Notes under the pieces: generated by a model
What the model saw: only the letters and a program-made list of their open reading frames with translations
Databases searched by the model: none
Told to the model about the DNA's origin: nothing
Program-made: the position numbers and the translations under genes
Shown: piece after piece, positions 24,335 to 26,070 of the stretch
Position numbering within the stretch: position 1 is the first letter of the stretch
Layout of the letters: each line of letters begins with the position of its first letter
Virus record (IMG/VR): IMGVR_UViG_3300043099_000574
Location: 1 to 28,998 of that record
DNA from: a virus
Strand: one strand, 5' to 3'
DNA: 28,998 nucleotides

Positions 24335-24561
24335 CTTATTACGCTTGGTTTATCGTATTCACAGTAGTGGCATACTTCATCGTAACTGATGATAGTGTCG
24401 CTGCTGCTTTTTATTATGTGCTTAAGTTAGCAAAAGCTAACTATGAGAAGCAAAAGTGGTGGTTGTTACACAATCCAAGAAATCCTGTGGTAAAATATAT
24501 GATGCATCGTCGTTCTATGAAACTTGCAAAAGAGTTGATGGACGAATATGAAAATAAATAG
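24331..24561 (+). CDS. Small inner-membrane protein
   Basis: A 76-residue protein with one N-terminal transmembrane segment ('AWFIVFTVVAYFIVTDDSVA', about residues 5-24) and possible second weak segment (about 23-33), followed by a basic C-terminal part ('LAKANYEKQKWWLLHNP'). The basic part is likely cytoplasmic by the positive-inside rule. The stop TAA forms part of an ATAAATA motif. Function unknown. Confidence 0.65.
   Translation: MTYYAWFIVFTVVAYFIVTDDSVAAAFYYVLKLAKANYEKQKWWLLHNPRNPVVKYMMHRRSMKLAKELMDEYENK
24554..24560 (+). promoter_or_regulatory. Late promoter-like motif ATAAATA
   Basis: ATAAATA within the last codons of the upstream gene and 22 nt before ATG 24582. Confidence 0.45.
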
Positions 24562-24581: not shown

Positions 24582-24899
24582 ATGCTCTCTACGCAGTATC
24601 GGTTGAGACTTGAAGCAATCTGTGAAAAGATTGTTCTTCACGAAGAGGTGAGTTTAGAAGATATGATTTGGGCAGAGAAACTTGCAAAAGCAAATCGTTC
24701 TGCTGGAACAATGCTCCGTCAGGCAAGACGTAAAGCAGAAAATCCCAATATGGATGAAATGGATGACTTCCTAAACTCAATGGACATTGGTGGTTTAGGG
24801 CACGAAAGATTTGGTAGAAGAGGTTTTGACAGTCCTGATGAACTTCTTGATTGGTTTAAACGTGATGAAGACGAAACCGATTGGAGGACTAGGGATTGA
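24582..24899 (+). CDS. Hypothetical helical protein
   Basis: A 105-residue helical, charged protein ('LRLEAICEKIVLHEEVSLEDMIWAEKLAKANRSA') with a Gly/Phe patch 'GLGHERFGRRGFDSPDELLDWF'. Its stop overlaps the TTG start of the next gene. No motif I recognise. Confidence 0.65.
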   Translation: MLSTQYRLRLEAICEKIVLHEEVSLEDMIWAEKLAKANRSAGTMLRQARRKAENPNMDEMDDFLNSMDIGGLGHERFGRRGFDSPDELLDWFKRDEDETDWRTRD

Positions 24900-25093
24900 C
24901 CTACGAAGAGTTTATTCATAAAGGCACTGAGTTCTATATGGAAATGGTGCGTCTTGTTGATACTAAACTCAAATATCGCATGAACTTTACTGAAGAGGAG
25001 AAAGAAATAAAAGATCATATTATGGAGTTTCAACATCAAGTTAAACTGAATGAGTTGAGAGATAAGTTTGAAAAGTGCTTGGAGAAAGAATAA
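24896..25093 (+). CDS. Small helical protein with TTG start
   Basis: A 65-residue helical protein ('YEEFIHKGTEFYMEMVRLVD'). The start is TTG 24896, which overlaps the previous TGA and has a strong GGAGG at 24883-24887 eight bases upstream. No in-frame ATG exists before residue 15. The last codon TAA overlaps the next ATG. Family unknown. Confidence 0.6.
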   Translation: MTYEEFIHKGTEFYMEMVRLVDTKLKYRMNFTEEEKEIKDHIMEFQHQVKLNELRDKFEKCLEKE

Positions 25094-25293
25094 TGAAATC
25101 ATTTCAAGAGTTTCTATCGGAAGAAGAAAAGGCATCAAAAGCAACTGCAAAGTATCAGAACGAACCAAAAGGTAACCAAAAGTGTACTAATTGCAATATG
25201 TGGAGAGAACCTAATGCCTGTACTGCTGTGAAAGGCAAGATTTCACCTGATGGTTGGTGTAAATGGCATCAATATGATCGAAAAAATCGATGA
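25093..25293 (+). CDS. HiPIP-like iron-sulfur protein with capsid-targeting-like N-terminus
   Basis: A 66-residue protein, with start chosen at ATG 25093 (TAATG overlap, GGAGAAAG upstream), not the in-frame GTG at 25075. Residues 31-58 have the HiPIP pattern C31-x2-C34-x8-C43-x12-C56 with 'GWC' and a following Trp. Compare the Allochromatium HiPIP 'CADC ... C ... GWCASW'; the gap between Cys 34 and 43 is shorter here. HiPIPs carry one [4Fe-4S] cluster for single-electron transfer. The first 10 residues, MKSFQEFLSE, nearly match the T4 internal-protein capsid-targeting sequence MKTYQEFIAE and end in L-S-E, which fits the gp21 cleavage rule (L/I)xE. Both readings are pattern-based. Confidence 0.75.
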   Translation: MKSFQEFLSEEEKASKATAKYQNEPKGNQKCTNCNMWREPNACTAVKGKISPDGWCKWHQYDRKNR

Positions 25294-25481: not shown

Positions 25482-25614
25482 GATTGCTGAAGTAATAGAT
25501 GAAGCAATATGGAGATGGTATTTTGAACACGGTAAAGAAGTTCCCAACTGGAAAATGAAAAAAGATCCACAATGGTGGACAGATTACCTAGCAGAACTTG
25601 ACAACCAAGAGTAA
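25459..25614 (+). CDS. Small Trp-rich hypothetical protein (start uncertain)
   Basis: The frame is open from ATG 25396 (72 residues), which would overlap the membrane protein gene by 86 bases. I prefer ATG 25459 (51 residues), with GGAG at 25449-25452 and only 23 bases overlap. The product is helical with 'DEAIWRWYFEHGKEVPNW' and 'DPQWWTDYLAEL'. The end of the gene holds the -35 box of the next promoter. Function unknown. Confidence 0.55.
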   Translation: MKRQRRIEIAEVIDEAIWRWYFEHGKEVPNWKMKKDPQWWTDYLAELDNQE

Positions 25615-25626
25615 ATACTTTATAAT
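25598..25626 (+). promoter_or_regulatory. Consensus sigma70 promoter (TTGACA-17-TATAAT)
   Basis: TTGACA 25598-25603 within the coding end of the upstream gene and TATAAT 25621-25626 with 17-bp spacing, both perfect. The start would be about 25633, close to ATG 25642 (or ATG 25648). A TAAATA lies in the spacer. Confidence 0.85.
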
Positions 25627-25641
25627 ACCCGCATATACACT

Positions 25642-25851
25642 ATGATTATGGACTACAAACCCTATAGTATGGAATGGAGTCGGCGGCGGTATCTTGCCGA
25701 AGCAATCCAACAATACTTTGATACTGATGCGTCTCTGGATGTTGTCCTGGACGATATTGTGAGTGTGCTTGAGGAGAATGTAGAGCACCACAAGAGTCGT
25801 GCCGAACGCTTTCAGGAAGTTCTGAATGGTGTTAAGTCTTTACATAAATAA
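25642..25851 (+). CDS. Small hypothetical protein
   Basis: A 69-residue helical protein ('RRRYLAEAIQQYFDTDASLD', 'DIVSVLEENVEHHKSRAERF'). Starts at ATG 25642, with ATG 25648 as alternative. The leader would be only about 9-15 nt. The stop TAA is part of the ATAAATA motif at 25844. Unknown family. Confidence 0.6.
   Translation: MIMDYKPYSMEWSRRRYLAEAIQQYFDTDASLDVVLDDIVSVLEENVEHHKSRAERFQEVLNGVKSLHK
25844..25850 (+). promoter_or_regulatory. Late promoter-like motif ATAAATA
   Basis: ATAAATA 17 nt before ATG 25867. The 15-bp string ATAAATAACTAAAAA is identical to the one before the 824-residue fibre. Confidence 0.6.
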
Positions 25852-25866: not shown

Positions 25867-26070
25867 ATGAAAACCTTTCAGGAATTTCAGGAGCAAATGT
25901 TATCTGCTGCTGATAGGAAAGAAATTAAAATAGCAACTCTTACTTCTGCAGCAAGGCAAAATATTCGTAATGCTGCTTGGCAGAGAAGACACGCCTATCA
26001 TGAAATAGAAGCAAAAAATAGAAGGGAAGATCAAGATAGAATGCGAAGAGAACAGGAAACACAAATATAA
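25867..26070 (+). CDS. Charged small protein with capsid-targeting-like N-terminus
   Basis: A 67-residue protein that starts MKTFQEFQEQ, which matches T4 internal-protein MKTYQEFIAE at M, K, T, Q, E and F. There is no LxE protease site here. The rest is basic and helical ('RQNIRNAAWQRRHAYHEI' then 'NRREDQDRMRREQE'), which would suit a head-core or DNA-associated protein. A late-type motif lies just upstream, in keeping with late expression. Confidence 0.6.
   Translation: MKTFQEFQEQMLSAADRKEIKIATLTSAARQNIRNAAWQRRHAYHEIEAKNRREDQDRMRREQETQI

Follow-up and report, generated by a model that had tools for sequence, protein, structure and literature searches.

A PioC-type HiPIP of a freshwater cyanobacterial virus with a T4-type capsid-targeting-like N-terminus: a candidate internal head protein

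Cellular HiPIPs act in the periplasm following Tat export, and they conserve a tryptophan before the fourth cysteine together with an aromatic residue 2–3 positions past it, according to passages of PMC7462912. The Tat leader is usual in cellular HiPIPs and lies outside the PF01355 domain definition. In bacteriophage T4, small internal proteins enter the head by another signal. Passages of PMC9026906 state that incorporation of IPIII requires only its first 10 residues, that residues 4 and 7 mainly serve targeting whereas residues 8 and 10 serve processing, and that the gp21 protease cleaves after L/I-x-E. The IPI fold is thought to cross the portal (about 30 Å) folded, and the T4 tag delivers foreign proteins, for example GFP, into heads and hosts (portions of PMC9026906 and PMC3012670). 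Meanwhile, phage ferredoxin (petF) and other cyanophage redox auxiliary metabolic genes encode small phage-borne electron carriers. Ferredoxin is a low-potential [2Fe-2S] carrier.

Here we describe a gene in a 28,998-nt stretch of DNA (the window, meaning the whole stretch analyzed) whose source is a freshwater cyanobacterial virus. Our preferred reading, with a probability of about 0.68, is that the gene encodes a PioC-type HiPIP in which the Tat leader has been swapped for a T4-type tag, and that the protein is carried in the head and injected as redox cargo. We infer its packaging, trimming, injection, cluster and redox task from the sequence. The protein resembles PioC of Rhodopseudomonas palustris TIE-1 (PDB 6xyv, 7a4l, 7a58) in domain length, cysteine spacing (3/9/13), the tyrosine, the GWC motif and the C-terminal aromatic residue. 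In contrast to PioC-type bacterial HiPIPs, which are Tat-exported and periplasmic (passages of PMC7462912), it has a capsid-targeting-like N-terminus. It shares with T4 IPI, IPII and IPIII the N-terminal 10 residues (more loosely for IPI) and a small size, and S-SRM01, a relative described below, has gp21 and gp22. Unlike the T4 proteins, this phage cargo would be an Fe-S protein and not an anti-restriction protein or another fold, and its residue 11 is E or D, not A. The features are as follows.

24554..24560 (+): ATAAATA, T4-type late-promoter-like, 22 nt 5' of the gene at 24582
24582..24899 (+): phrog_507 gene, 105 aa, syntenic upstream neighbor of the HiPIP gene
24896..25093 (+): 65-aa ORF with a TTG start, overlapping the phrog_507 gene and the HiPIP gene; in 23 of 81 loci
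25093..25293 (+): HiPIP-family protein, whole CDS, 66 aa (ORF, PF01355, PioC match, GGAG at 25081–25084)
25093..25122 (+): residues 1–10, MKSFQEFLSE, putative T4-type capsid-targeting sequence (F4, F7, L8, E10), from conservation and pattern counts
25126..25269 (+): residues 12–59, HiPIP domain as delimited by the PioC alignment
25183..25185 (+): Cys31 codon, predicted [4Fe-4S] ligand 1, from alignment
25192..25194 (+): Cys34 codon, predicted [4Fe-4S] ligand 2, from alignment
25219..25221 (+): Cys43 codon, predicted [4Fe-4S] ligand 3, from alignment
25258..25260 (+): Cys56 codon, predicted [4Fe-4S] ligand 4, preceded by W55, from alignment and passages of PMC7462912
25867..26070 (+): 67-aa protein MKTFQEFQEQM..., tag-like N-terminus; an ATAAATA ends 17 nt upstream

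The 66-aa ORF translates as MKSFQEFLSEEEKASKATAKYQNEPKGNQKCTNCNMWREPNACTAVKGKISPDGWCKWHQYDRKNR. Translation most likely begins at the ATG of 25093, because GGAG stands upstream at 25081–25084 and, in three related loci (L039, L043, L047), an in-frame stop codon abuts the 5' side of the corresponding ATG; the adjoining stop rules out a misread start. The minus-strand reading of the ORF is broken by stops. The gene is the last in an overlapping cluster of three (24582–24899, 24896–25093 and 25093–25293), and the phrog_507 gene lies within 900 nt upstream of the HiPIP gene in 72 of the 75 loci having at least 700 nt of upstream sequence. The product is basic (pI 9.2), with a size of 6.5–7.8 kDa. 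Further downstream, the protein at 25867–26070 is possibly a second internal protein; it has Q at residue 8 and so fails the strict tag pattern defined below, and it is present in 5 of the 81 HiPIP loci.

The cysteine frame of the product consists of C31, C34, C43 and C56, with GWCKW at residues 54–58. The Pfam model PF01355 (HIPIP) matches residues 12–57 at E 2.3e-5; its 25 bits exceed the cut-off of 22, and a six-frame search gave 23.9 bits. In a sequence search of the PDB, the best match is PioC (E 1.3e-9, residues 12–59), with identical cysteine spacing in the alignment, followed by the Rhodothermus-type HiPIP 3h31 (E 0.009); mucin matches in the same database (E 0.25–0.7) were put down to chance. 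Among 34 aligned phage and bacterial sequences, Y21, the four cysteines, G48 and G54-W55-C56 are all invariant. The family follows the rule of a tryptophan before the fourth cysteine and an aromatic residue downstream: W55 is present in all 46 distinct proteins, and W58 in 44 (Y in one, L in one).

AlphaFold was given the 34 aligned sequences, and one of five models was confident (mean pLDDT 81, pTM 0.61), the remaining four reaching 40–48. A helix is modeled at residues 4–10 with low confidence (mean 57 for residues 1–10). Foldseek against the PDB listed 20 matches, 18 of which are HiPIP entries, none with E below 0.001; 1isu ranks first (E 2.9e-3), then PioC (E 4.3e-3). VIA-align gave Z 6.8 for 1isu (rmsd 3.0, 53 aligned) and Z 6.4 for PioC (rmsd 2.2, 54 aligned), against Z 2.6 for two non-HiPIP rows. 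PioC is thus the best match by sequence and the second best by fold. The earlier note had assigned residues 31–58 to the HiPIP cysteine frame, and the Pfam score over the cut-off, the PioC match and the fold comparisons bear this out. Judged from its sequence and predicted fold, the product is almost certainly a real HiPIP. A purely structural four-cysteine domain, zinc-binding or degenerate and no longer holding a [4Fe-4S] cluster, would be very improbable, since the four cysteines, Y21 and W55 are kept in 46 of 46 proteins and W58 in 44, and the cysteine core has the lowest dN/dS.

A tblastn search of annotated phages found a homologue with 86% identity in S-SRM01, annotated as a hypothetical protein (two records). 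This phage (Kyanoviridae, Serangoonvirus) is an isolate on freshwater Synechococcus. The distant second match, at 36%, is in the 484-kb phage LR756508. A match in Actinomycetia phage DSL-LC01 (E 0.3) was too weak for use. In IMG/VR, 84 relatives were found and 80 kept. Residue counts cover 46 distinct proteins from 81 loci, including the window's own copy (L083); L078 (a contig-end fragment) and L002 (a megaphage) were left out, and the N-terminal filter removed no other frame among L001 and L003–L082. Pooled over 55 distinct coding sequences with a counting method, dN/dS comes to 0.098 for residues 2–11, 0.071 for residues 12–30 and 0.036 for the cysteine core, the lowest among the stretches where it is computable. 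Since the values are about 0.10 and 0.04, both the N-terminal and the HiPIP halves are under purifying selection.

Among cells, a scan of genome contigs with one genome per species (84,980 species) returned 114 pattern matches, 8 of which are relatives. They show 46–53% identity over the best segment and 38–47% in the alignment, and we take them, by record titles and taxonomy, to be all Pseudomonadota. All 8 carry a twin-arginine leader at the position that MKSFQEFLSE occupies in the phage proteins; the phage residues 1–11 (MKSFQEFLSEE) hold no RR, that is, the Tat leader is absent. Recent capture of a host gene was set aside, as none of the 8 is cyanobacterial in a scan that reaches close relatives only. 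Plasmid matches comprised 14 records, from Rhizobium and haloarchaea only.

In the 46 distinct proteins, K2, F7 and E10 are invariant. Residue 3 is S in 37, T in 7 and N in 2; residue 4 is F in 41, L in 3 and Y in 2; residue 8 is L in 44 and I in 2; residue 9 varies (S, F, A, L); and residue 11 is E in 45 and D in one. Mapped onto T4, the targeting positions therefore read F/Y4 in 43 of 46 and F7 in all, and the processing positions L/I8 and E10 in all. Five loci (L044, L062, L063, L065 and L066) have MKSYQEFIAE, one residue off T4 IPII and IPIII. We defined a strict pattern, MK.[FYL]..F[ILV].[ED]; it is met in T4 by IPII and IPIII (MKTYQEFIAE) and by gp61.1 (MKTFKEFIKE). IPI starts with MKTFKEFTST and fails it by the T at residue 8. 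The gp61.1 protein (54 aa, T4 NC_000866 18966–19130, complement) is possibly an unrecognized internal protein.

S-SRM01 has 4 frames that fit the strict pattern and T4 has 3, whereas shuffling residues 2–31 leads one to expect 0.03 and 0.04. The resemblance to the T4 targeting sequence pointed out in the earlier note is thus upheld by the T4 targeting residues and by the excess in S-SRM01. S-SRM01 also encodes gp21-, gp22-, gp23- and gp20-like proteins, its gp21 protease and gp22 core matching phrog_207 (E 8.5e-82) and phrog_237 (E 1.1e-109); the window itself is a 29-kb fragment. On the other hand, the internal-head-protein match of the HiPIP protein in a PHROG search was weak (E 0.26). Residues 1–10 are likely a real T4-type targeting N-terminus.

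Because the motif spans only about 10 residues, a chance resemblance to the T4 tag was weighed. Against it stand the count in S-SRM01, the retention in 46 distinct family members and a search of longer records with a DNA pattern for starts of the form MK-(S/T-like)-(F/Y)-QEF-(hydrophobic)-x-E. For this search, 18 records were chosen from the loci in hand, mainly longer contigs, 14 of them with a cyanophage-type HiPIP (1.62 Mb). The pattern matched at 31 places in these 14 records, with matches in every record (several records share genes): 13 HiPIP genes, 17 other proteins and one spurious 10-aa frame. In record G002, the HiPIP has L4 and so falls outside the 13. The reversed pattern had 0 matches in the same 18 records, and the pattern itself had 0 in the four records with distant HiPIP types. 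Eight bacterial genomes (38.3 Mb), with a base composition unlike that of the phage records, gave one match. Chance is in our judgment the least probable of the explanations considered.

The earlier note proposed a search for MK(S/T)(F/Y)QEF starts on other proteins, and run in IMG/VR this search was productive. The DNA pattern found at least 119 stretches, of which 80 loci were listed, giving 86 matches; one match with a frame shorter than 30 aa was discarded. Among the matches listed there are 78 distinct tagged proteins, namely 7 HiPIPs and 71 others. A wide set of unrelated proteins with the same N-terminus, which by the earlier note would count against the idea if they were cytoplasmic and unpackaged, does exist; those members with virion evidence, the T4 internal proteins and GC190, are packaged. 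GC190 is a cytidylyltransferase, an unrelated enzyme domain behind an N-terminus of this type (MKKFSAFLNEA for S-SM1, MKNFHQFITEA for S-SRM01), and it is the sole frame in S-SM1 meeting the strict pattern. Proteomics detected it in the virions of S-SM1 (passages of PMC3037559). A looser pattern adds in S-SM1 a 55-aa frame and a start inside the PTOX gene, without a known head role. The motif is therefore not fully sensitive, as IPI fails it, and once loosened it is not specific, as the looser S-SM1 matches indicate.

Pfam covered 18 of the 71 other tagged proteins. Three match SAM lyases, with 64.9, 38.0 and 28.9 bits where the cut-off is 28, and three match ADP-ribosyltransferases, all under the Pfam cut-off (15.8–20.4 bits); of the rest, one is a DUF5661 and the others have no match or weak ones. 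Phage SAM lyases have an anti-restriction role. The tagged SAM-lyase-like proteins (L208:5738–6253, L161:5266–5838 and L205:3994–4548) are possibly packaged anti-restriction enzymes. The ADP-ribosyltransferase-like ones (L204:962–1507, L210:5389–5838, L232:3965–4420 and, by eye only, L293:1813–2460) are reminiscent of T4 Alt. Searched against PHROGs, 4 of 7 tagged proteins weakly match internal head or virion families through the N-terminus only (phrog_8111, E 0.0029; phrog_2667, E 0.0063–0.052).

The claim that L-S-E at residues 8–10 fits the gp21 site stood in part. L or I at residue 8 and E at residue 10 are universal in the family; residue 11, however, is E or D in 46 of 46 HiPIP proteins, against A, C or S in 61 of the 71 other tagged proteins among the matches listed (A 26, C 20, S 15, V 3, E 2 and five single others). 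A small residue 11 is an empirical pattern of these proteins, and the passages of PMC9026906 state no such rule. Given this difference at residue 11, trimming after LSE may not occur.

ATAAATA is the core of T4-type late promoters. The window contains 9 copies on the plus strand and none on the minus strand, a number not above chance (shuffle mean 9.8). Their positions are biased: 6 of the 9 end 5–45 nt before a gene start, compared with 6% of positions (p 4e-6), the gene list for this test being a selection from ORF tables. Among the relatives, 27 of 52 distinct upstream regions have ATAAATA in the 600 nt before the gene; counting only the 47 regions of 600 nt or longer, the figure is again 27. 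Sigma-70-like promoters numbered 13 against 10.2 expected. As a separate observation, a sigma-70-type promoter at 25598–25626 has 12/12 consensus positions and a 17-nt spacer; it stands before the gene at 25642, near ATAAATA motifs, and lies downstream of the HiPIP gene. From these signals, late expression of the HiPIP gene is likely, with ambiguous timing.

The protein might instead be an unpackaged, cytoplasmic auxiliary metabolic electron carrier, with its tag likeness due to descent from a tagged gene or to another cause. Cyanophages do have redox genes, and S-SRM01 encodes a glutaredoxin, a ferredoxin and a peroxiredoxin; the deviating residue 11 and the sigma-70-like promoters in the region point the same way. 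However, purifying selection maintains the four T4 targeting and processing residues, the gene is located downstream of tail-fiber genes and far from the S-SRM01 photosynthesis cluster, and the missing export leader places the usual HiPIP partners out of reach. Unlike the HiPIP, the S-SRM01 ferredoxin gene sits beside hli and psbA and is not among the four tagged frames. We regard an unpackaged carrier as unlikely, and the sequence evidence suggests that the HiPIP protein is probably T4-type internal head cargo.

For the preferred reading of an injected redox cargo, we propose the following course. Like cellular HiPIPs ahead of Tat export, the protein would fold in the cytoplasm, here that of the infected cell, and acquire its [4Fe-4S] cluster there. 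Residues 1–10 would bind the scaffold core, leading to enclosure in the prohead, where the gp21 protease possibly trims it after LSE. Packed with the DNA, it would be ejected via the tail into the next host and serve there, or already in the capsid beside the DNA, as a one-electron redox cargo. A small, basic HiPIP fits the T4 portal route.

Within packaging, there is a variant in which the protein stays with the virion as a redox or iron reservoir or a hole scavenger near the packaged DNA, with no role after injection. This variant is a sub-case of packaging and shares its probability with the preferred reading. The same targeting evidence and the basic pI agree with it, as does the presence, in another virus, of a HiPIP-like domain within an 866-aa protein encoded next to the portal gene. 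Yet T4 IPI, which serves as a model for the tag, enters the host along with the injected DNA (passages of PMC3012670), and we consider the purely virion-resident role rather unlikely, if less so than an unpackaged carrier.

Cyanobacterial high-potential carriers are lumenal. With its leader absent, a packaged HiPIP would reach the wrong compartment for photosynthesis, which argues against the role in host photosynthesis that the earlier note had suggested; the absent leader likewise tells against work between cytochrome complexes and photosystems. Of the possible redox tasks, we consider donation to a photosystem less likely than protecting packaged or incoming DNA from oxidation or exerting early redox control in the host cytoplasm.

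Distant HiPIP-like domains were found in seven IMG/VR loci and in LR756508. In L131–L134, the domain ends a protein of 127–135 aa, whose N-terminus is, for example, MYLSKKKLRSVVEEEVKKLLSE; the L130 protein starts with MSEKKLRNIIRQE. The start of the LR756508 HiPIP has neither the T4-type tag nor the other recurrent motif. A search with the L133 N-terminus (E up to 10) found 16 further frames, 8 in LR756508, 5 in G014, 2 in G015 and one in G025. All 16 (L318–L333; 102–242 aa) have an in-frame Met at the match or a few residues before it, and L329 and L333 are mutually related. This recurrent large-phage N-terminus on 16 ORFs (LR756508, W02 in our set, with G014, G015 and G025) reads M-LSxxKLRxIVxEEIxxxLxE, and it may be another virion-targeting tag.

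In a different arrangement, L136:3564–6164 (the same protein is in L135) encodes 866 aa straight after the terminase and portal genes. It matches DUF192 with 76 bits, its C-terminus is portal-like (phrog_2662, E 4.7e-7), and the HiPIP-like domain is internal (HIPIP 17.4 bits, under the cut-off of 22). Taking the cyanophage tag, the other large-phage motif and the portal-adjacent protein together, we tentatively suggest, at somewhat less than even odds, that HiPIPs have been repeatedly recruited as virion cargo. If so, viruses deliver a ready-made high-potential electron carrier with the genome.

Among the papers listed by searches of titles and abstracts, with most subscription journals and bioRxiv outside their scope, none reported a phage HiPIP or cyanophage capsid-targeting sequences, and a further search found no paper printing five such N-terminal strings. 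The S-SRM01 paper (PMC8557907) contains neither 'iron' nor 'HiPIP' in its main text. Fold and delivery route are each known, and we found no precedent for their combination in these title and abstract searches. If the preferred reading is true, an electron-transfer metalloprotein serves as phage head cargo, and a periplasmic protein was converted by swapping an export signal for a packaging signal. The tag also offers a simple sequence handle for cyanophage internal proteins. Because it occurs on SAM lyases, ADP-ribosyltransferase-like proteins and a known virion enzyme, proteomics of S-SRM01 and similar isolates could test for a hidden set of delivered effectors.

Two minor observations concern annotation. 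In MW015081.1, the gene at 135233–135883 (L148:35233–35883), labeled as a primosomal protein, matches the head maturation protease family phrog_207 (E 8.5e-82). In the same record, psbA at 207378–209040 is annotated as two pieces flanking an endonuclease gene.
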